DNA of 21,837 nucleotides from a virus: IMG/VR virus record IMGVR_UViG_3300032665_000217, positions 1 through 21,837 of that record; one strand, given 5' to 3'. The translations under genes and the position numbers were made by a program. Numbering within the stretch: position 1 is the first letter of the stretch; the number at the start of each line of letters is the position of its first letter. Shown piece by piece: positions 131 through 21,837 of the stretch. A model generated the notes under the pieces. That model worked only from the letters and a program-made list of their open reading frames with translations, did not search any database and was not told the origin of the DNA.

Positions 131-3100
131 ATGCCTAAAATAAACGTACAGGGTTATGGACCTGTAAACTTTCCGGACGATATGTCCCAAGAACAGATTG
201 CTAATGTAATCGAAAACGAATATATCCCACATATGAAACAGCATATCGCTAAGGAAGGTTTTATTCCTGGCGTTAAAGCTGGTTTACAATCAGGGTTAGG
301 TAATGTAGAAACATTCTTAGGTGAGAATCTAGGTATGCCTTCATTATCTGAAGCTGGTAAACAAAATAAAGCAGAAGCTGCTACTAAGTATGAAGAACCT
401 TATGCTGGTGAAACTGCCGCTGCATTTCAACGCGGTATTTTACCTGGTGTTGGCACTGCTATATCAAACGTAACAGGTCCTGTTGGTAATATCTTAGGTA
501 CATTTGGTCCTACAACTTTAGTAGGTGTTGCTGCTGCTCCCTTACTTCCTGAAGAACTTGCTGGTCTAACTCTAAGCACAGCTACTCGACGTGCAATTGG
601 TACTACTGTAGCTAATGGGTTTGAAGAAGCTGGTCAAAATATAGATAAACAAAAAGATTTACATCCCGATCAAAAAGTAAACTTACTCGCTGCTGATTTA
701 ACAGGTCTTATTCAAGGTGCTATTGATACTATTGGTGTGCCTGGACTAGGTAAATTAAGTAATAAATTAGCTCCTCAATTAGAAAACCAAGCTACTAAAT
801 TATCTAAACAAATCGTAGATGGTGAAATAACTCATGCAGAAGCTGCTAAAAGCTTATCAAGTAAATGGACTGAATATCTAGGTTCTACTGCGTCTAACTT
901 TGCTTCAGGTGCTGGTATGATGACTGCAGACGAAGCATTACGTCGTGCACAAGCTGGCGAAGATGTAACAAGTCCTGAAGCCTTAGAATCTTATAAACAT
1001 GATATTGGTAGCGCATTATTAATGTCACCTGTATTTGGTGCATATCACGTTCTTACAGGTAGTGGTCGTGGTGAAGCTAATAGAAAACTAGATGAAGCCC
1101 AAGCTACTAAAACTGCAAAAGACCAAGCTATTGCTGAAGCTGAAGCTAAACGTGAGATGGATATTAAAACTGGGGTTATGCAACAACAACCTATGTTTAC
1201 TGAAGAGCAAGCACCAAGTCCAGCAGGTCCACCAGCCCCAGAAGCACAAGGTCCATCAACGCTTACACAAGCAGAACTCGATCAAATAAATAAAGTTGAG
1301 CAATTACAAAAACAACAAGAAGCTGAAGCTGCGGGTCAACAATCTTTATTTGATGAAAAAGGTAAACCTACTCCTGAAATAGAACAAGAGCAAGCTAAGA
1401 GTCGTGTTCAACAAAATCAAGAAAAAGTGAATACATTGTTAGCTACGCCAGAAGGCACTAAGCAAGTACTAGATAATATCAAGGATTACTTCTTTGACTA
1501 TACAAAGGCTGACCAAAACAAGATTAGAACTCAGTTACAACAACGTATGAATGCGTTTACTTTAAAAGACGAAGATGTGCTAAGTCAAAAACAAAAAGAA
1601 TATGAACAACTATTCTCTGTTATCGAGCCTATACCTGAACACGAATTAACTTCACAAAAATTACAAGAAGCAGGCATTAAAGGTTCTCTTGCAGCGCAAT
1701 TAAAAGATAAGAGTTTGAAAGACCCGGCGGTATATAATAAAGTTGCAGATGTAGCTAATGATTTAAAAAATACAAATGCATCTGCAGCAGCTAAACTATT
1801 AGATGGTATTCAAGCACCAGAAGGAGTAAAAAATGTTAAAAGAACTAAGTCCGCAACAGCTGGAGAAAGCGATGCAGTATCTCTCAAATCCGAAGATGAA
1901 ACTGACACCGGAACTAGCAGAGATATCAAATCTACAATGGGTTTCAATCGAGTTGATAATGGTAGAGCTCTTGAAGGAGCAAAAGATGTCAACGCTGCAT
2001 TAAAAGAAGCTAAGATATATGAAACTAAAGATGAAAGCGGTCAAGAGTATTTAGGTCTTGGTGAGAAGAAAGAAGAAGTAGCTAAAGAAGAAAAAGCTGC
2101 TAAGACTCCTGAAGAAATTAAACAAGCAGAACTTGATCGTAAAGCCTTATTAGAAAGAGAACAAGAACTATCTAAGAAACTTCATAAAGCTGGTGAAGAA
2201 GCTTCTGATATCTACGCTTCACAAAAAGAAGCTGAAGAAAATAAAAACCTAGATTTATCTACTACAACTCCTGCAGAATTAACTGAAGATTCAACATTCC
2301 AAAGAAAATTCAAGAATGTAAAAACACTAGGTGATGCATTAAAAACTCTCAAGAAGATGCCTATTAGTAAAGGTCAACAAGCCCTTGCTAATTTATTACT
2401 CAACACTAAAAATGTTTCAGACGTAGCATTTGAAACAGCTAAACATCCACAACCTAAAGATATACGCAAAAAAGGTCCTAAGACTTACATCGGTGAATTT
2501 ACTGGTGAAAAGCGTACAATGGGAGAAGAAGCATCTAGAAAACTAATCAACTATGAGAAGTTTACAGGTGAATACGACTCTGCTGAAAATAAAGCTAAAC
2601 TTTATCAATCAGGTAATGCCGAGAGTTTATTACATGAAGGCATTCATGCCGCTACTGCATATGAAATAGATAAACATATTGACCATGTACCTGACCCAAG
2701 AGGTGCTGCATACGGTGTAACTCCAGTTGCAAAACCTAACTCAGTTATCGGTAAACGCTGGGTAAGAATGTTTAACGCCGCAAAAGAAGCAGCTAAGAAT
2801 AGAAATGAAGATCACTATGGTCTAGATGACATACATGAATTCGTAGCAGAAGCTCTTAACCCACATGATAATAAATTTAGACAACTATTAAAGAATACAG
2901 CACCTACTTCAAAAGCTAAACCAAGAGGTAGATTGCCTTCACTATTTACTGAGTTTATTCAGAACATAATGGACTTATTAGGTGTTCCACAAAAATATGA
3001 AAGTCTATTCCACGAAATATTAGATCATAGTTCTGAACTATTCAAAGGTCCTGATCTATCAATAGATAAAGATGTAGCTAAATTACAAGCTGCTATTGAA

Positions 3101-5869
3101 GGTAAACCAGCAACTTATATTGATGCAGGTAAAGGCTTACTACAAAAAGTTAAACACTTCTCTATTATTACAGACTCTCCAGGACGTGAGCATGATGTAG
3201 AAGAATTATTATCATCACCTAATGCCATACTAGATAAACTTCCTGAGTTTGATAATACATTTAAAGATAAAGCACTAAATTGGTATTCTAAAGCAACAGA
3301 AGGCATGCGTAAGTATTGGTTAGGTGCATTAGAATTATCTAAATTACATATGTTGTATGGTAAAGAACTACCTTCTATTAAAACATTAGAAACAGCAGTT
3401 AAAGATAGAAATCATTTCCACGTAATAGAAAGAAAGCATATAGATAATATTACTAATAAAGGTCTTATTACTATTCAAAAACATGCTAAGCCTATTATAG
3501 AGAAATTTAATAATACTATACATGAACTATCTCGTCTTCGTTTAGACCCTAGACCTGATGAAAATGGAGTTATAAAAGACAAAGACCATGAATTAGTAAA
3601 ATCATTTTATTCATTACCTGATGATTTACAAAAATTAGGTTTAGATATAGTTAATAGTTATAAAAAATATAGTGATGATTATATAGACTTTATTGCTAAT
3701 GCAGTACCAAGCAAAGCTAATCAAATAAGGAAAAAATTTGAAACAGCTCAAATACCTTTCTATGTACCATTATTACGTAGAGGTCAATACTGGTTGCAAT
3801 ACATGAATCCTACTGGAGAAATGACTACTATAACTAAAGACTCTCCTAGAGAAATAAACATGATTAAAGATGCTTTAGTACAACAAGGTATGAAACGTGA
3901 TGATATTAAAGTATATTCTAAACTACAAGATATTAGTCATAGGTCTGCACCTCCATCAGGTTTTGTATCTGATGTATTAAAGATAATGAAAGAAGGCGGA
4001 GCTTCTGAAAAATCTATGGATGAAACTTACCGTACATATCTATCTTTATTCCCAACAGAATCTATCAGACAATCATTTAATCAACGTCGTGGTGACTTAG
4101 GTTATATACAAGATGTAATTCAAGGGTATGCTAGAACTGCACCTAAGATGGCTAGCCAACTATCTAATTTAAAATATGCTCCAGAGATCGATAAGGCTTA
4201 TTCTGCTTTGAAAGAAGATTTTGTTAAAAGTGGTGAAACTAAAGTAGCTTCAGATGTTATGCATGAACTTATGGAAAGACGTAAATTTATTGATAATCCG
4301 TCTGCTGAATGGTGGGCTTATCGTGCAAGCCAAGCTAACTTTTTAATGAGTATTGCAGGTAACGTATCATCTGCATTAGTGAATACTACAGCTGTTCCTA
4401 TGGTAGCTTTACAACATATTGCCGTAGATAAAAATGGTAATTATAACTATTCTAGAGCTAGCCAAGCGATTGCTAAAGCTACTAAGATGTTCTTCCAAGG
4501 CGGATATGATGATAGTAAAGAGTATTTAGGTAAAATATATAGAATTAGAACATTTGGTGTTAATGACAAGTTATCTTCTGAATATAAAGATTTGCATGAT
4601 AAATTATTAAGAAGTGGTGTATTAACTTATAGTATTGGTCGTGAACTACATAGTATTGCTGAAGCACCATCTGATAAATATCAATTATGGAAAGATAAAG
4701 CTAATACATTATTAGGTCTTACATTTGAGGGTACAGAAAGATTTAATAGAGAAGTAACTGCATTAGCAGCCTATGATGTTGCTCTTCAAGATGGGTATAC
4801 TCATGAACAAGCTATTAAAAAAGCTATTGACCTTACAGCTAGAGTTCATACGGAAGCTATACCAGAAGCAGGTCCACGTTGGTTACAGGGTCAAGGTGCT
4901 ATTGGTGGACTACAAAAAATTGCATTAACATTTAAACGCTTTACATTAGCACAGATTCTTAATATGGGTATGTTGTCTAGAGATATGTTTAAAGATGCTA
5001 AAACTGCTGATGAACTTATGGCTAAAAAGATTGCAGTTAAACAATTATTAGGTATCTTAGGTGCTACTTATATGTTTGCAGGATTACAAGGATTACCTGG
5101 TTATGGTCTAGTAAACGCAGCAGCAAACTTCTTTGGTAGCGATTCTGATGAACCGTTTGATCTTGATGAATATATTAGAAATGCTTATGGTGATATTGGC
5201 TTAACAGGTCCAATCAATGCAGCTACAGGTATTGATATAGCTTCTAGAACTGGTTTCAATGGAGCATTGTGGAGAGAAGATAAGAAACGTTTAGCTGATG
5301 TAGGTTATGTTGCATACGCTATGGAAAACCTAATGGGTCCTACTTTCTCTAATTTAGAGAATATGGAAAAAGGTGTTAAGCAAATGACAGAAGGTCAGTA
5401 TGAACGCGGTCTAGAAAAGATGGTACCTTCTCCAGTAAGAAATGTTATGAAAGCTTTTAGGTTCTCTGCTGAAGGTGCGTTAAATCCTAATGGTACTCCA
5501 GTAATTGATAACGTAAGTGATTGGAATAAGTTTATGCAAGTATTTGGCTTTAGTGATGCAGAGCTTACAGAACAATATGCTAGATCAAGTGCTATGAAAT
5601 CAATGGAGAAAACTATCTTAGATAGAAGGAAAGCATTATTAGATTCAATGTTCCTAGCATTAAGTAATGGTGATGAAAGTGCTCAAACTAGTGTAACAGA
5701 ATTAATTAGTAAGTTTAATGAGAAACACCCAGAGATTGCTATTACTGCTCAAACAATACAGTCATCTTATAAAAATAGAGAACGTGCAATTAATGAAAGT
5801 GTAGGCGGTGTACACTTTAATAGAAAACTATTACCTGAACTTCAAGAGATGTATAAAGAAGAAGAGTAA
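131..5869 (+). CDS. Giant polyvalent-type virion protein with zincin (HExxH) domain and PLxRFG/LPD-like C-terminal region
   Basis: 1912 residues. The N-terminus (about 8-30, with VNFPDDMS) matches the short module that opens many large phage internal proteins. A glycine/alanine-rich hydrophobic stretch lies at about 120-150, followed by a Gln/Glu/Ala/Pro-rich low-complexity linker at about 320-420. HEGIH at 835-839, with EFVAE at 903-907 downstream, reads as a zincin metallopeptidase site. Residues 1394-1430 (WWAYRASQANFLMSIAGN) and about 1585-1670 (KIALTFKRF, then a hydrophobic helix) resemble the LPD and PLxRFG regions of 'polyvalent proteins', which are packaged and delivered with the phage genome. 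I infer a virion or ejected role; the protease may act on host or virion proteins. The ATG has no clear Shine-Dalgarno site. The gene ends directly against the convergent operon. It shows no T7-type or N4-type RNA polymerase motif that I can see. Confidence 0.85.
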   Translation: MPKINVQGYGPVNFPDDMSQEQIANVIENEYIPHMKQHIAKEGFIPGVKAGLQSGLGNVETFLGENLGMPSLSEAGKQNKAEAATKYEEPYAGETAAAFQRGILPGVGTAISNVTGPVGNILGTFGPTTLVGVAAAPLLPEELAGLTLSTATRRAIGTTVANGFEEAGQNIDKQKDLHPDQKVNLLAADLTGLIQGAIDTIGVPGLGKLSNKLAPQLENQATKLSKQIVDGEITHAEAAKSLSSKWTEYLGSTASNFASGAGMMTADEALRRAQAGEDVTSPEALESYKHDIGSALLMSPVFGAYHVLTGSGRGEANRKLDEAQATKTAKDQAIAEAEAKREMDIKTGVMQQQPMFTEEQAPSPAGPPAPEAQGPSTLTQAELDQINKVEQLQKQQEAEAAGQQSLFDEKGKPTPEIEQEQAKSRVQQNQEKVNTLLATPEGTKQVLDNIKDYFFDYTKADQNKIRTQLQQRMNAFTLKDEDVLSQKQKEYEQLFSVIEPIPEHELTSQKLQEAGIKGSLAAQLKDKSLKDPAVYNKVADVANDLKNTNASAAAKLLDGIQAPEGVKNVKRTKSATAGESDAVSLKSEDETDTGTSRDIKSTMGFNRVDNGRALEGAKDVNAALKEAKIYETKDESGQEYLGLGEKKEEVAKEEKAAKTPEEIKQAELDRKALLEREQELSKKLHKAGEEASDIYASQKEAEENKNLDLSTTTPAELTEDSTFQRKFKNVKTLGDALKTLKKMPISKGQQALANLLLNTKNVSDVAFETAKHPQPKDIRKKGPKTYIGEFTGEKRTMGEEASRKLINYEKFTGEYDSAENKAKLYQSGNAESLLHEGIHAATAYEIDKHIDHVPDPRGAAYGVTPVAKPNSVIGKRWVRMFNAAKEAAKNRNEDHYGLDDIHEFVAEALNPHDNKFRQLLKNTAPTSKAKPRGRLPSLFTEFIQNIMDLLGVPQKYESLFHEILDHSSELFKGPDLSIDKDVAKLQAAIEGKPATYIDAGKGLLQKVKHFSIITDSPGREHDVEELLSSPNAILDKLPEFDNTFKDKALNWYSKATEGMRKYWLGALELSKLHMLYGKELPSIKTLETAVKDRNHFHVIERKHIDNITNKGLITIQKHAKPIIEKFNNTIHELSRLRLDPRPDENGVIKDKDHELVKSFYSLPDDLQKLGLDIVNSYKKYSDDYIDFIANAVPSKANQIRKKFETAQIPFYVPLLRRGQYWLQYMNPTGEMTTITKDSPREINMIKDALVQQGMKRDDIKVYSKLQDISHRSAPPSGFVSDVLKIMKEGGASEKSMDETYRTYLSLFPTESIRQSFNQRRGDLGYIQDVIQGYARTAPKMASQLSNLKYAPEIDKAYSALKEDFVKSGETKVASDVMHELMERRKFIDNPSAEWWAYRASQANFLMSIAGNVSSALVNTTAVPMVALQHIAVDKNGNYNYSRASQAIAKATKMFFQGGYDDSKEYLGKIYRIRTFGVNDKLSSEYKDLHDKLLRSGVLTYSIGRELHSIAEAPSDKYQLWKDKANTLLGLTFEGTERFNREVTALAAYDVALQDGYTHEQAIKKAIDLTARVHTEAIPEAGPRWLQGQGAIGGLQKIALTFKRFTLAQILNMGMLSRDMFKDAKTADELMAKKIAVKQLLGILGATYMFAGLQGLPGYGLVNAAANFFGSDSDEPFDLDEYIRNAYGDIGLTGPINAATGIDIASRTGFNGALWREDKKRLADVGYVAYAMENLMGPTFSNLENMEKGVKQMTEGQYERGLEKMVPSPVRNVMKAFRFSAEGALNPNGTPVIDNVSDWNKFMQVFGFSDAELTEQYARSSAMKSMEKTILDRRKALLDSMFLALSNGDESAQTSVTELISKFNEKHPEIAITAQTIQSSYKNRERAINESVGGVHFNRKLLPELQEMYKEEE

Positions 5870-17303: not shown

Positions 17304-17564
17304 TTATTTTTTTGATTTTAGATATTCTTGAATGTCTCTAGCATACCATTCTATTTTGCCTGCTTCTTGAATAGGGTCGTCTTTGTCACCTAAACGACTA
17401 GCATATGCTATAAGAGTGCCTTTGATATAACCACAATATTCCTCTGTGGTTAGTTTTGCTTTGATGTAATCTGATGTTTCTATGCCACCTTTTGTGTAGT
17501 GAGATGGGCTATTTACCATATCAGATGTTATGGGTTTTGCTCCTGTGCCTTGTGTTTCTGTCAT
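17304..17564 (-). CDS. DUF3310 protein (T7 gp1.7-like)
   Basis: 86 residues. VNSPSHYTKGGIETSDYI is the hallmark opening of DUF3310, with GYIKGTLIAYASRLGDKDD and the KIEWYARDI helix completing the domain. In T7 the relative gp1.7 acts on nucleotides (thymidylate kinase-type activity); other members are uncharacterised, so a part in nucleotide supply is likely but not certain. The usual 'KYLxR' is altered to AYASR here. The gene starts in a TAATG overlap with the VRR-NUC gene, with AAAGGA upstream. Confidence 0.88.
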   Translation of the reverse strand: MTETQGTGAKPITSDMVNSPSHYTKGGIETSDYIKAKLTTEEYCGYIKGTLIAYASRLGDKDDPIQEAGKIEWYARDIQEYLKSKK

Positions 17565-17848
17565 TATAGTCCTTTCATTAGGGTTATAAGTTCATCTATA
17601 TTACTCTCATTTACCACGATTGCCAAGCCTTTATTATTGTTTATTAGGTTAATGTTGTGTTTTTGCAACTCGGTAAGTTTGTTATTACCTGCCTTACATT
17701 CTATCCCTATAAACTTTCCCTTATGACATACAACGATGTCAGGCACACCACTACTGCCATATCCACCTGTCTGTGGGAAAAAATAATAACAACCGACAAT
17801 GTCTAAAATTCTTTTAACTTGTTTCTTTACTTTGGCTTCGGGTGTCAT
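17564..17848 (-). CDS. VRR-NUC domain nuclease
   Basis: 94 residues, the stand-alone length of phage VRR-NUC proteins. MTPEAKVKKQVKRIL opens the domain; GYGSSGVPDIVV supplies D37, and GIECKAG gives E50 and K52, the PD-(D/E)XK catalytic set; LTELQ (Q62) follows. Such enzymes cut branched DNA and commonly occur with SNF2-type helicases, one of which lies in this operon. Probable role: resolving recombination or replication intermediates. The first 35 nt overlap the preceding gene. Confidence 0.92.
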   Translation of the reverse strand: MTPEAKVKKQVKRILDIVGCYYFFPQTGGYGSSGVPDIVVCHKGKFIGIECKAGNNKLTELQKHNINLINNNKGLAIVVNESNIDELITLMKGL

Positions 17849-18062: not shown

Positions 18063-18216
18063 ATATTCTACTTACTCCTTCAAAGATACCTAATAAATCA
18101 TTAGGCTTAAAATCATTCTTGTTAAATGAGAATGGTGACTTTCTACCATTAGCGTGCTTGATATATCCTGTGACTACAATTTGTTCTACGATAATTTGTT
18201 TCTCTTTAGCTACCAT
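18031..18216 (-). CDS. Small unknown protein
   Basis: 61 residues. It begins with a beta-type stretch (KQIIVEQIVVTGYI), then HANGRKSPFSFNKNDFKPNDLLGIFEGV. No known family. It overlaps the preceding gene by 11 nt and the next by 32 nt, and AAAGGTG lies upstream of the ATG, which supports it as a real gene in the chain. Confidence 0.65.
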   Translation of the reverse strand: MVAKEKQIIVEQIVVTGYIKHANGRKSPFSFNKNDFKPNDLLGIFEGVSRIYEPRRTETKT

Positions 18217-18562
18217 CTTTTACACCTTTTAGTTCGTTGAGTTGCTCTTCATCTAAAATAACTATATAGAATGACTTTGATGCTCGCCAACCTATATACT
18301 CCATATTTTTAACAGGACAATTATACATTTGAAATTCAAACAAATCTCTATCCTCTGCTATTTTGTTAGGCGATGATGCCTTTGCAAATGTAAGTTTAGC
18401 TTTAATATAATTAGGCAAAGTATGTTCGTTAAATATTCTACGATGTCCTCTGCCTACAAACACATTATATTCATCACTTACATACACAGGAACTTTGTAT
18501 AAGATTTCTGTCCTAGAAGTTTCTATGGGTTCTATAACTTCTATTATAAGATTTTGAAACAT
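18206..18562 (-). CDS. Unknown protein preceded by a dyad/hairpin element
   Basis: 118 residues, beta-rich N-terminus (LIIEVIEPIETSRTEILYKVPVYV) and an acidic C-terminus (ILDEEQLNELKG). No family recognised. Its ribosome site (AAAGGAA) directly follows the first of the two AGTCTAC...GTAGACT dyads, so its expression is probably set by that element together with the VWA gene. Confidence 0.65.
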   Translation of the reverse strand: MFQNLIIEVIEPIETSRTEILYKVPVYVSDEYNVFVGRGHRRIFNEHTLPNYIKAKLTFAKASSPNKIAEDRDLFEFQMYNCPVKNMEYIGWRASKSFYIVILDEEQLNELKGVKDGS

Positions 18563-18577
18563 ACATTCCTTTGGTTG

Positions 18578-18596
18578 AGTCTACATGATGTAGACT
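18578..18596 (-). repeat. Dyad copy 1 (AGTCTACAT-N-ATGTAGACT), before an SD site
   Basis: A perfect 9-nt inverted repeat around one central base. On the - strand it follows the stop of the 340-aa gene (sharing one base) and precedes CAACCAAAGGAA and the ATG. As RNA it folds as a 7-8 bp stem with a 3-5 nt loop. A near-identical copy lies at 20843-20860. Confidence 0.75.
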
Positions 18597-19618
18597 TATT
18601 GTAATTGAACTAAGATATTTCCTTTAGTGTCACGGACTTCTATACCCCATCTAGAGTCGGGATAGTTTTTATCAAAGTCCCAGTATTTTACTTTAGTAAA
18701 TGTATTATGTAAAGTCTTGAGCCTATCACTAAATTTTCTTTTAAAGAATTCAAAATATATTATTGGTTTATATCTTGAAGGGTTATTATTACTTACTACC
18801 CAATACAAATCATGAATACCGAACCCAATCATATATAAATAACTTGCCGATACATAATCAGTTTTCCATAACTCATCAGCTTTATTTAATATAACTTCAC
18901 TATGATAATTACCTTCATTATCACTAGATACACACTCCTTAAATACATCTCTAATAGTTTCAACAAAGGATTCATTGTCCAATGTATTCATAAATGTTTT
19001 AATTATATTAAGTTTTTCTTTCTCAGCTTTTATGACTTCATTAGACTTAGTTCTATCTACATAGGGTATATCTATTGAATACCTTGATGACTCATGCAAT
19101 TCAAATGTATCTATATTGTATCTAAAGCCTTTGAATACAGGTATTTTAAGATTGTGTACATAAGACTTAATAATATTACCACCAGCTCTAGATGATTTCA
19201 TAGCAAATACTCTATGAGGTAAATATTGACTCCATATCATGTTTGAACCTTGATGCAAACTATTATGAGTTAGCTCTGCCGTATTATCATCTCTAACGAT
19301 AAAGAATGGTTTTTTATCATGGTTCCATGTAGAGTAATAAGGTATGTTAGCCATGTTTTTCCATCGGTATCCTAAGGCTGAATGATATTTATAAAACTTT
19401 TCAGGGTCATGTTCTTTCATCTGTTCAGCTTCATATGGGTCAAGATAATCTTCTACGAACCCACCCCAATAGTAAAGATGATATTCAATCTTACCATCAA
19501 CTTCTACGACTTTAAAGTATTTATGTCTATGAGTTCTACTAGCATACGGATACTCATCAGTATTCCGATAAGGTTTTGTGTTTGCTACTATTTGTTGTAA
19601 TGCTCTATAGCTTATCAT
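18596..19618 (-). CDS. Unknown AT-rich 340-aa protein next to the VWA gene
   Basis: 340 residues, rich in aromatic residues (many Tyr, Trp, Phe), without cysteine clusters, a signal peptide or membrane segments. Blocks such as EYHLYYWGGFVEDYLDPYEAE, KYHSALGYRW and FDKNYPDSRWGIEVRDTKGN suggest a folded alpha/beta protein, but I know no family. Its ATG follows the VWA stop directly (TAAATG) with AAGGAAG inside the VWA gene, so the two are translated together. Sample 60-nt rows are 22-30% G+C, against 40-45% in most rows sampled from the AAA+ and VWA genes, suggesting a different origin. A substrate or partner of the AAA+/VWA pair is a fair guess only. Confidence 0.75.
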   Translation of the reverse strand: MISYRALQQIVANTKPYRNTDEYPYASRTHRHKYFKVVEVDGKIEYHLYYWGGFVEDYLDPYEAEQMKEHDPEKFYKYHSALGYRWKNMANIPYYSTWNHDKKPFFIVRDDNTAELTHNSLHQGSNMIWSQYLPHRVFAMKSSRAGGNIIKSYVHNLKIPVFKGFRYNIDTFELHESSRYSIDIPYVDRTKSNEVIKAEKEKLNIIKTFMNTLDNESFVETIRDVFKECVSSDNEGNYHSEVILNKADELWKTDYVSASYLYMIGFGIHDLYWVVSNNNPSRYKPIIYFEFFKRKFSDRLKTLHNTFTKVKYWDFDKNYPDSRWGIEVRDTKGNILVQLQ

Positions 19619-20830
19619 TTAGTCTTCCTTTTTAATAACTTTACCATAGGTTGTAGGGAAATTACTTCGTTGCGTTATTAACCACAATGTCGGTGATGTG
19701 ATGTTCCATTTAATATCATCTTCAACATAGCCGTCGGTGAATACAATGACTGCCTCAGTTTGTATCTTATGTTTATTTATATATTCACTCACACTTGATA
19801 CATGAGTTCCACCACCACCTTCGGGTTTTAGTAATGACGCAATAGCATTGTATTGACTTGGTTCAAACACTTGCATCGAATGGACTTCGGTATCCCACCA
19901 TAACACACGAACTTTTGATGGATTACTTACTTCACAAATCGTCACCAGTTCCGTTGCAAACTCTGTAAGCTCTACGCTACCTATTGAACCTGATGTATCA
20001 ATCGCTACAATTAATTCACCCATACTCTCGTTCTCAATAGATGGCATATAAATATCATTGACCATAAGTCTTTTGTTAAACCTTCGCCAAGTATATTCAT
20101 CACTACCACGAGTTGCACTAGATATGAACTCACGCAATACCTCACGCCAATTAACTTTTGGTGTAAGTAAGTCTTGTATGGTTCTTGGTATCTTAGCACC
20201 GAGCCTGCCTGCCAATAGACTACCTTGCCTTATTGCATTGTCTATCTTACTTGCTTGCTCTGCTACTTGTTCAGGTGACATTGTTTGTGCGTTCTCAAAG
20301 TCGTGGTCATCTAATGTTTTCATATCTGATACATCGGGCTGACCATTACCATTGAGTCCACTACCTGTAGACTCACCCTTAGATTTCTTATCTTGTTGCT
20401 CTTTCTGTTTTTGTTTAAGATAGTTATATACTTCACGCACAGACCAATTATGAAACTTTGCATCATACAATGCATCATCGGGCAACTTAACTATGTTAGG
20501 GTTAAGTTGCTTAATGACATCGTTCACAACATAGTCGGCGGCGACATTAACTAAGTGAGGCTCTGCCTTAAACTCTTTGGTAAATCGTTGTATGTGTTTG
20601 AATGCGACATGAAGGTTCTCATGCATCACTAAGCCACATAACTCTTGGTCGGTTAGACCTTCAATAAACTTTCTACCATACTTCTTATTGACGCCGTCGG
20701 TGTATGCAGTAATATCTTTATCCTCAACACTACTCTTACCCATAAGGATAACACCTGAATACAATGCCGTGTCAGTATAGTTGAGCAAGGCAACATGAGC
20801 CTTCTTTAACCTCATCTCTTGACTAGCCAT
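19619..20830 (-). CDS. DUF2201-like protein: HExxH metallopeptidase-like domain plus VWA domain
   Basis: 403 residues. HENLH (70-74) with AADYVVND (97-104) reads as a zincin-like metal site. A Lys/Gln/Ser/Gly linker (about 137-165) follows. The C-terminal VWA domain has an intact MIDAS: DTSGS (278-282), GGGGTH (T342) and FTDG (D366). This HExxH-VWA pairing is the DUF2201 layout; its partners are usually MoxR-type AAA+ ATPases, and one lies directly upstream. CobT of cobaltochelatase is a more distant alternative. The function is unknown in phages; metal-dependent assembly or remodelling of a protein complex is inferred. The ribosome site AAGGAGG is excellent and sits right behind dyad copy 2. 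Confidence 0.88.
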   Translation of the reverse strand: MASQEMRLKKAHVALLNYTDTALYSGVILMGKSSVEDKDITAYTDGVNKKYGRKFIEGLTDQELCGLVMHENLHVAFKHIQRFTKEFKAEPHLVNVAADYVVNDVIKQLNPNIVKLPDDALYDAKFHNWSVREVYNYLKQKQKEQQDKKSKGESTGSGLNGNGQPDVSDMKTLDDHDFENAQTMSPEQVAEQASKIDNAIRQGSLLAGRLGAKIPRTIQDLLTPKVNWREVLREFISSATRGSDEYTWRRFNKRLMVNDIYMPSIENESMGELIVAIDTSGSIGSVELTEFATELVTICEVSNPSKVRVLWWDTEVHSMQVFEPSQYNAIASLLKPEGGGGTHVSSVSEYINKHKIQTEAVIVFTDGYVEDDIKWNITSPTLWLITQRSNFPTTYGKVIKKED

Positions 20831-20842
20831 ATTTCCTCCTTG

Positions 20843-20860
20843 AGTCTACAAGTGTAGACT
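20843..20860 (-). repeat. Dyad copy 2 (AGTCTACA-N2-TGTAGACT), before an SD site
   Basis: Perfect 8-nt arms around two bases. On the - strand it lies between the AAA+ stop and the AAGGAGG of the VWA gene. With copy 1 it shares AAGTCTACA and TGTAGACTCAA. An alternative pairing ACAAG/CTTGT overlaps the same bases, so two mutually exclusive hairpins are possible. Confidence 0.75.
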
Positions 20861-20865
20861 TGTTA

Positions 20866-21837
20866 TTAAAATAACTCATGGTTCTCTGATGCCCACTTCG
20901 TAATCTCTAGATTACTACGAGCTAGCTTTCTAGTCTTATCACTACGGATAATCATAGTAAAGAATATCGCTTGTATCTCAGAGCTATCAATACGCTTAAC
21001 AAACTTCATGAATGATGATAGTTCATCTTGAGTCTTGAGTCTATCTGTCGCTTGGAACATTAACATGAGTTGACCTGCCATATCCTCTGGAATATTAATA
21101 TCCATTGGGTTCTCAATAATCTTGTCAAACTCTGGTAATTGCTTATCAAGTTTAAGGAACGCACTCATATCTGCACTTGCACTCGCACCGATAGTCCCTG
21201 CCAATGCACACATCGTCGCATTATCACCAATGACATCTTGGTTATCTACAATGACTGACGCTTTAGCTAATGAACGAGGGCTACAGAAAGATAGCACAGG
21301 CTTACTAGGATTAAAGATATATGGGTTATCCTCTTGACCTACATCAAGATAACTATTCAATGCTCTTGGGAACATATACACCCATGCTCTAATCAACGGA
21401 TTGATATTGTTATTGCCTGCCCACTTGAGCCATGTATCCACATCGGGCTTTTGCATTTTCAATATACACACACGATTGCCTGCATGAGCTAACATCGTAT
21501 CACCTACACCATCACTTGCATTGTTACTTGTGCCGAACACGATTGAGCCTTGTGGTAACTCTACATCACCGACACATCTCTCTAGCATTAACCTAGTAAA
21601 GATAACTTGTAATAACTTCGGTGACTTCATGAACTCGTCTAGTAAGATAACCTTAGGCTTTGGACTATCTAGTTTAAACAAATTACCGACATAGCTCTCT
21701 AGTGTTTTGCTTTCGTGGTTCGGAATAGTCATAGATATATCTGACATATCTTTCACAGGGCAATCTACATAGATATAATCATAGTCATCGCCTAAGTCTT
21801 GCTCAATCATTTTGAGTAATGATGTCTTACCACAACC
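20866..21837 (-). CDS. MoxR/CobS-like AAA+ ATPase, N-terminus cut by window edge
   Basis: The frame runs to the window edge: the bases before the ATG at 21810 read GCGKTSLLK, the second half of a Walker A loop, so the real start lies outside. At least 323 residues are visible. Counting from that internal Met, VILLDEF (54-60) is Walker B and VFGTSNN the sensor 1 asparagine. AGNRVCILKMQKPD and PRALNSYLD match the order seen in MoxR and CobS types (AAA_5). Such ATPases work as hexamers that remodel a partner through a VWA protein, encoded next. CobS identity (metal insertion into cobalamin precursors, found in some phages) cannot be ruled out. Confidence 0.88.
   Translation of the reverse strand, partial: GCGKTSLLKMIEQDLGDDYDYIYVDCPVKDMSDISMTIPNHESKTLESYVGNLFKLDSPKPKVILLDEFMKSPKLLQVIFTRLMLERCVGDVELPQGSIVFGTSNNASDGVGDTMLAHAGNRVCILKMQKPDVDTWLKWAGNNNINPLIRAWVYMFPRALNSYLDVGQEDNPYIFNPSKPVLSFCSPRSLAKASVIVDNQDVIGDNATMCALAGTIGASASADMSAFLKLDKQLPEFDKIIENPMDINIPEDMAGQLMLMFQATDRLKTQDELSSFMKFVKRIDSSEIQAIFFTMIIRSDKTRKLARSNLEITKWASENHELF

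Follow-up and report, generated by a model that had tools for sequence, protein, structure and literature searches.

The 21,837-bp linear IMG/VR virus record IMGVR_UViG_3300032665_000217 (here the window, analysed over its whole length) encodes on its minus strand, in the 5' to 3' order of the open reading frame (ORF) calls, an AAA+ ATPase, a DUF2201 protein with a VWA domain and a 340-residue protein termed X. Across an uncultured phage clade the AAA+ and VWA/zincin genes are co-encoded, in fixed order and on one strand, with X, with a second family termed Y, or with both. This companion rule is the finding reported here, and the mechanism discussed below is a hypothesis. X and Y, two exchangeable companion families, are new, while the functionally unexplained AAA+/VWA pair was already known.

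The sample comprised 80 IMG/VR relatives of the VWA protein together with X-seeded searches, run with single members because the X alignment offers no conserved stretches, and the VWA sequences, clustered at 90% identity, gave 34 clusters of close relatives (VWA identity of at least 47%). Profile searches locate X in 27 of the 34 clusters, always downstream of VWA and on the same strand. The seven clusters without X have Y in that slot, and many clusters hold both families. Y was recognised by mapping W, the gene that follows the slot, as a second gene of about 270-380 residues between VWA/X and W. Its branches Y1 and Y2 constitute one family (hhalign probability 97% over 273 aligned columns). 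A relationship of Y to X as its distant member was ruled out by a negative profile comparison, and the BFVD Foldseek matches of the two models do not overlap. Among 73 loci reaching W, a count that includes one contig twice (L004/L007), X stands alone in 29, Y alone in 15 and the two together in 29, and none lacks both. X was never found without VWA in the X-seeded searches where upstream DNA was present. A scan of genome contigs returned one VWA relative, on a short contig of a metagenome-assembled genome without X and Y. On the midpoint-rooted AAA+/VWA tree there are three changes for X and two for Y: X was lost in L053 and L065, each inside groups holding X and Y, whereas Y disappeared twice, one of these losses falling in the ancestry of the window phage. 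These losses are independent and the remaining family was left each time. Whole-contig searches, on contigs that may be incomplete, show X to be missing and not shifted elsewhere in L053, L065, L072, L079 and L081, and likewise Y in G001, G009 and G013.

The AAA+ protein lacks 34 N-terminal residues that lie outside the window (the near-identical gene of L004 encodes 357 residues) and matches phrog_1297 (E 2e-45). Walker A and B, sensor 1, the arginine finger and sensor 2 of the MoxR type are all kept; all 22 relatives compared have Walker B D101-E102, N139, R156 and R222, and the Walker A residues are nearly invariant among them. The best PDB match of its profile is Midasin (E 3e-17), with Clp/Hsp104 ATPases and the uncharacterised AAA+ structure 2r44, which we take to be MoxR-like, coming next, and the closest solved relatives are Midasin/MoxR. 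The DUF2201 protein exceeds the Pfam cut-offs for both DUF2201_N (E 2e-30) and DUF2201 (E 5e-19; PF13203 and PF09967) and matches phrog_1314 (E 2e-88). T342 and D366 complete its metal ion-dependent adhesion site (MIDAS); in 23 relatives, N4 gp25 among them, these two residues never vary, and neither do the possible zincin helpers N95/D99/N103. A Pfam search revealed no extra or effector domain fused to it. The label 'HNH endonuclease', attached to phrog_1314 in PHROGs and to many GenBank relatives of N4 gp25, is a misannotation for which the sequence gives no support. The AAA+ and VWA proteins are acidic and X is basic. A preliminary description of this DNA had named a MoxR/CobS-like ATPase, of which the MoxR part agrees with residues and PDB profile and the CobS part does not; its DUF2201-type protein with HExxH and intact MIDAS, its aromatic-rich third protein and its early-type operon of three consecutive genes, which lies on the replication-gene strand, are all borne out.

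CobS/CobT and the window pair have an AAA+ and a VWA/MIDAS protein in common, and such clusters in tailed viruses and cyanophages have been named cobST (PMC8651126). According to Liu et al. 2021, writing on tailed viruses, the pair would be CobS/CobT, take CobN of the host and raise cobalamin synthesis. The window, however, has a DUF2201 zincin domain with intact HExxH in place of CobT, and the VWA protein matches none of the CobT Pfam families, just DUF2201 and, weakly, generic VWA families. The CobN context is also missing: CobN (PF02514) is absent from 13 records, although gaps in the contigs or a CobN of the host are possible, and no ribonucleotide reductase scores above cut-off in 11 clade contigs or N4. 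No chelatase figures among the best PDB matches of the AAA+ protein and the CobST model leaves no place for X/Y. Because neither CobN nor ribonucleotide reductase was found and the protein is DUF2201 rather than CobT, cobaltochelatase function is very improbable, and membership of the pair in that enzyme, envisaged earlier as a refutation, found no support.

The pair is widespread, tblastn against 50,697 phage records detecting VWA in 774 and AAA+ in 452. In N4, SABI, D500, RPP1, DSS3phi2, S-TIM61, RHph_TM27B and Pag-Yong1 the two genes are co-oriented, 0-5 genes apart. Judged from sequence, with phrog_1297 and phrog_1314 adjoining on one strand, the window pair corresponds to N4 gp24/gp25, encoded by core genes of N4-like phages without assigned function (PMC4193335). 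The N4 pair (Schitoviridae) has the same two families, order, strand and Walker/sensor, HExxH and MIDAS residues, but only 23-27% identity and a downstream gene for dCTP deaminase instead of X or Y. The X profile gave no match in the regions of these eight phages. Comparisons of X with virion and other pair-neighbour genes of N4, RPP1, DSS3phi2, S-TIM61, SABI and D500 as possible homologues were all negative. In Pag-Yong1, a Planktothrix phage (OL906435; L119 25453-27395), genes of 300 and 346 codons lie downstream of VWA in an arrangement resembling X plus Y, with no detectable homology. The 346-residue protein of this slot is annotated as the anti-CRISPR AcrVA2, and both X and Y are without match to it. 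The cyanophage S-TIM61 (L115) encodes consecutively Hsp20, MoxR, DUF2201-VWA, a small gene, a 'virion structural protein' and ThyX, a possible hint of virion assembly in cyanophages.

Alternatively, the slot might be one that tolerates cargo, with X and Y as unconnected early genes whose position reflects the gene order of the clade and not joint function. Several observations are of this kind and weigh against a functional link between X and the pair. The region from AAA+ through VWA, slot and W to the nuclease is collinear throughout the clade, and W and the nuclease are neighbours conserved as well as X, so that synteny alone is unspecific; W accompanies the pair as regularly as X/Y do, and its rate of evolution equals that of X. 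Small genes often sit between VWA and X, and the gap between the two varies from -50 to +1381 nt across clusters. The translational linkage noticed earlier, with the VWA stop TAA immediately adjoining the X start ATG, is real in the window but is not general. No X stands beside the pair in cultured phages, the 50,697 isolate records giving no tblastn match to X, and since X is absent from AAA+/VWA phages outside the clade, including N4, the pair can work without it. The neighbourhood check called for at the outset accordingly has two sides, X or else Y accompanying all clusters of close relatives but no X occurring among cultured-phage pairs (774 VWA records). The link of X to the pair is visible as synteny and would only by extension be functional. 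In contrast, random cargo should at times vanish altogether, whereas the slot is occupied in 73/73 loci and, through several independent losses of X or Y, the other was always retained. A tolerant cargo slot appears rather unlikely, while deserving serious consideration.

X is an undescribed protein family. It has no match in Pfam, PHROGs, NCBIfam or PADLOC; the weak Pfam/PHROG matches of single members (best E 0.0004), each to a different family, were taken as chance. Profiles of X and Y have no significant match among PDB sequences. The AlphaFold2 model of X (51 sequences; predicted local distance difference test 87.8, predicted template modelling score 0.72) has no fold match in the PDB by Foldseek (best E 0.68), and in BFVD it matches two uncharacterised proteins of uncultured phages (E 2e-6 and 2e-4). 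These are, for X, the profile and structure searches suggested in the preliminary description, whose idea of an undescribed system holds for X as a new family but not for the pair, which is that of N4. Phe, Trp and Tyr make up 16.5% of X, a content reached by 0.5% of ORFs of at least 250 residues, and its isoelectric point is 8.5. Seventeen positions, including R18, R28, K33, E115, Q123-G124, G146-G147 and R189, are conserved in at least 85% of 27 representatives, all within residues 4-189.

The window and near-identical phages differ by 2 nonsynonymous changes in VWA and by 20-28 in X. In the ratio of nonsynonymous to synonymous substitution rates (dN/dS), X reaches 0.27-0.46 and VWA about 0.1 among near-identical phages; against more distant phages, where synonymous sites are near saturation, the values are 0.36-0.44 and about 0.1. 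For AAA+/VWA, comparisons with enough changes give 0.06-0.13. These estimates indicate that X evolves approximately 2-5 times faster in dN/dS than AAA+/VWA and point to a protein under constraint, not frozen. Of the changes in X between near-identical phages, 21/27 fall within residues 190-340 (p 0.0004, an indicative value because the domain border was set after viewing model and data). Similarity of the N-terminal domain exceeds that of the C-terminal domain in 98% of pairs family-wide. The distribution of changes and the 17 conserved positions thus divide X into an N-terminal domain that is β-rich and conserved and a C-terminal one that is helical and variable.

The AAA+, VWA/zincin and X proteins would together form one protein-remodelling module, in which X and Y serve as exchangeable dedicated adaptors or clients; this reading seems to us evenly poised between right and wrong. 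By analogy with known machines, the AAA+ protein would form a hexameric ring that the VWA domain would plug in the manner of NorQ/NorD, and the MIDAS metal would grip an acidic residue of a partner. Modelling of NorQ/NorD places the VWA finger inside the AAA+ pore, and what the MIDAS binds is an acidic residue on the target and not the ATPase (PMC9976466). Rea1 has two alternative substrates, each with a Glu to which its MIDAS binds (PMC6624252). X and Y may be alternative MIDAS partners of this type, either as adaptors delivering a target or as clients undergoing remodelling; the HExxH domain, a putative peptidase, could cleave the partner or its target. As the sole near-invariant acidic residue of X, Glu115 in its conserved N-terminal part is the leading candidate for the MIDAS ligand, and choosing or forming the target side would fall to the fast-evolving helical C-terminal domain. 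A more specific version, in which one AAA+/VWA-peptidase motor is aimed by X, Y or both through a conserved docking domain supplying the MIDAS ligand and a fast-evolving target-facing domain, is tentative and, taken as a whole, unlikely. The earlier proposal that X is a dedicated substrate or adaptor is plausible within the clade because X is a regular companion of the pair there, but it overlooked Y, and either X or Y suffices.

The window pair resembles the MoxR-VWA chaperones NorQ/NorD, RavA/ViaA and CbbQ/CbbO in combining a motor with a VWA/MIDAS co-chaperone. The VWA partners in these systems, unlike the window protein, are not known to be DUF2201 zincins; their targets are host metalloenzymes or respiratory complexes. 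Midasin/Rea1 (Mdn1), the best PDB profile match of the AAA+ protein, offers a single motor with two alternative MIDAS ligands (PMC6624252), but it unites six AAA units and the MIDAS in one giant polypeptide, and its substrates Rsa4/Ytm1 have ubiquitin-like domains that were not detected in X or Y. The MoxR-vWA-VMAP/iSTAND ternary conflict systems (Kaur et al. 2020, PMC7159879) also combine MoxR and vWA with a third conserved protein. They are cellular, whereas the window module belongs to a phage, its X is without Pfam match and its VWA has no fused effector. Assignment to these systems was rejected, as the module shows neither a VMAP, iSTAND or FtsH third protein nor a VWA effector fusion.

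The pair might instead be a virion-assembly chaperone with proteolytic maturation, X (or Y) being a minor virion or injected protein that is loaded or processed. Virion assembly and proteolytic processing were proposed for the MoxR AAA+ / vWA-metallopeptidase pair of group 2.2 jumbo phages (Iyer et al. 2021, PMC7824862), which, like the window pair, joins an AAA+ protein to a VWA fused to an N-terminal metallopeptidase domain; the likeness is one of description, and no X/Y family is reported there. Two papers (PMC7824862, PMC8651126) have already proposed functions for phage AAA+/VWA pairs. A precedent is ATV p618/p892, as cited in PMC3893208. Proteins found in the RPP1 virion are encoded near the gp24/gp25 homologues (PMC4193335), and the S-TIM61 pair lies two genes away from an annotated virion structural protein. 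X, in contrast, has no similarity to the RPP1, DSS3phi2 or S-TIM61 neighbours, and the module is on the replication strand, apart from the structural genes. G001, a near-identical contig of 63 kb, has terminase, portal and further structural genes on its plus strand, opposite to the AAA+/VWA/X operon and the replication genes. This replication-strand position favours early or mid action before assembly and suggests that the module acts early or mid infection, not in late assembly. A virion role is improbable, although the RPP1 precedent keeps assembly in play.

Table 1 Coordinates of the features in the window.
Feature	Positions	Strand	Remark
AAA+ ATPase, MoxR/Midasin type (phrog_1297; N4 gp24 relative)	20866..21837	-	N-terminus cut by window end
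DUF2201 protein, 403 aa (phrog_1314; N4 gp25 relative)	19619..20830	-	zincin-like metallopeptidase N-terminal and VWA/MIDAS C-terminal domain
HExxH motif H70-E71-N-L-H74 of DUF2201 protein	20609..20623	-	invariant in 23 sequences including N4 gp25
MIDAS DxSxS motif D278-T-S280-G-S282	19985..19999	-	invariant in 23 relatives including N4 gp25
X family protein, 340 aa	18596..19618	-	without known family or PDB fold
X N-terminal β-rich domain, residues 1-189	19052..19618	-	holds all 17 near-invariant residues
X C-terminal helical domain, residues 190-340 and stop	18596..19051	-	fast-changing between near-identical phages
W, 118-aa protein	18206..18562	-	conserved next gene after X/Y in clade
VRR-NUC/Holliday-resolvase-like nuclease	17564..17848	-	weak Pfam match below cut-off; same gene order across clade
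Inverted repeat AGTCTACA-AG-TGTAGACT	20843..20860	.	intergenic, AAA+/VWA
Inverted repeat AGTCTACA-TGA-TGTAGACT	18578..18596	.	intergenic, X stop / ahead of W

Downstream of X the minus strand continues with W, which carries a conserved 'TLPxxIKxxL' motif, the nuclease-like protein, DNA polymerase A, an exonuclease and helicases. In G001 a 384-residue protein (L107:8668-9822, minus strand) that matches phage 'ferrochelatase' and 2-oxoglutarate-Fe(II) oxygenase families is inserted between DNA polymerase and exonuclease, where the window has none. A plus-strand ORF of 1912 residues (131-5869) converges on the minus-strand genes; over its last 700 residues it matches a family of DarB-like antirestriction/large polyvalent proteins (phrog_10089, E 5e-81), and Pag-Yong1 has a 2772-residue 'large polyvalent protein' in the convergent position. 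The hairpin GTCTACA(N2-3)TGTAGAC, represented in the window by the two inverted repeats of Table 1, occurs at early gene boundaries, flanks the VWA-X pair on both sides and has a chance expectation of 0. It is present in 5-6 copies in L003/L004 and, among the loci fetched, in near-identical phages only. It could be an RNA-processing, promoter or operator site.

Hundreds of phages carry the pair, which is core to the N4-like ones, and the published proposals for it, virion assembly and cobalamin synthesis, disagree. X and Y provide specific candidate partners next to the pair, with an either/or rule and a MIDAS-Glu115 contact that are testable, and these two families, without Pfam, PHROG or NCBIfam names, could be annotated. 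If the exchangeable-adaptor machine is real, a phage would swap its adaptor to remodel or cleave different host or viral proteins.

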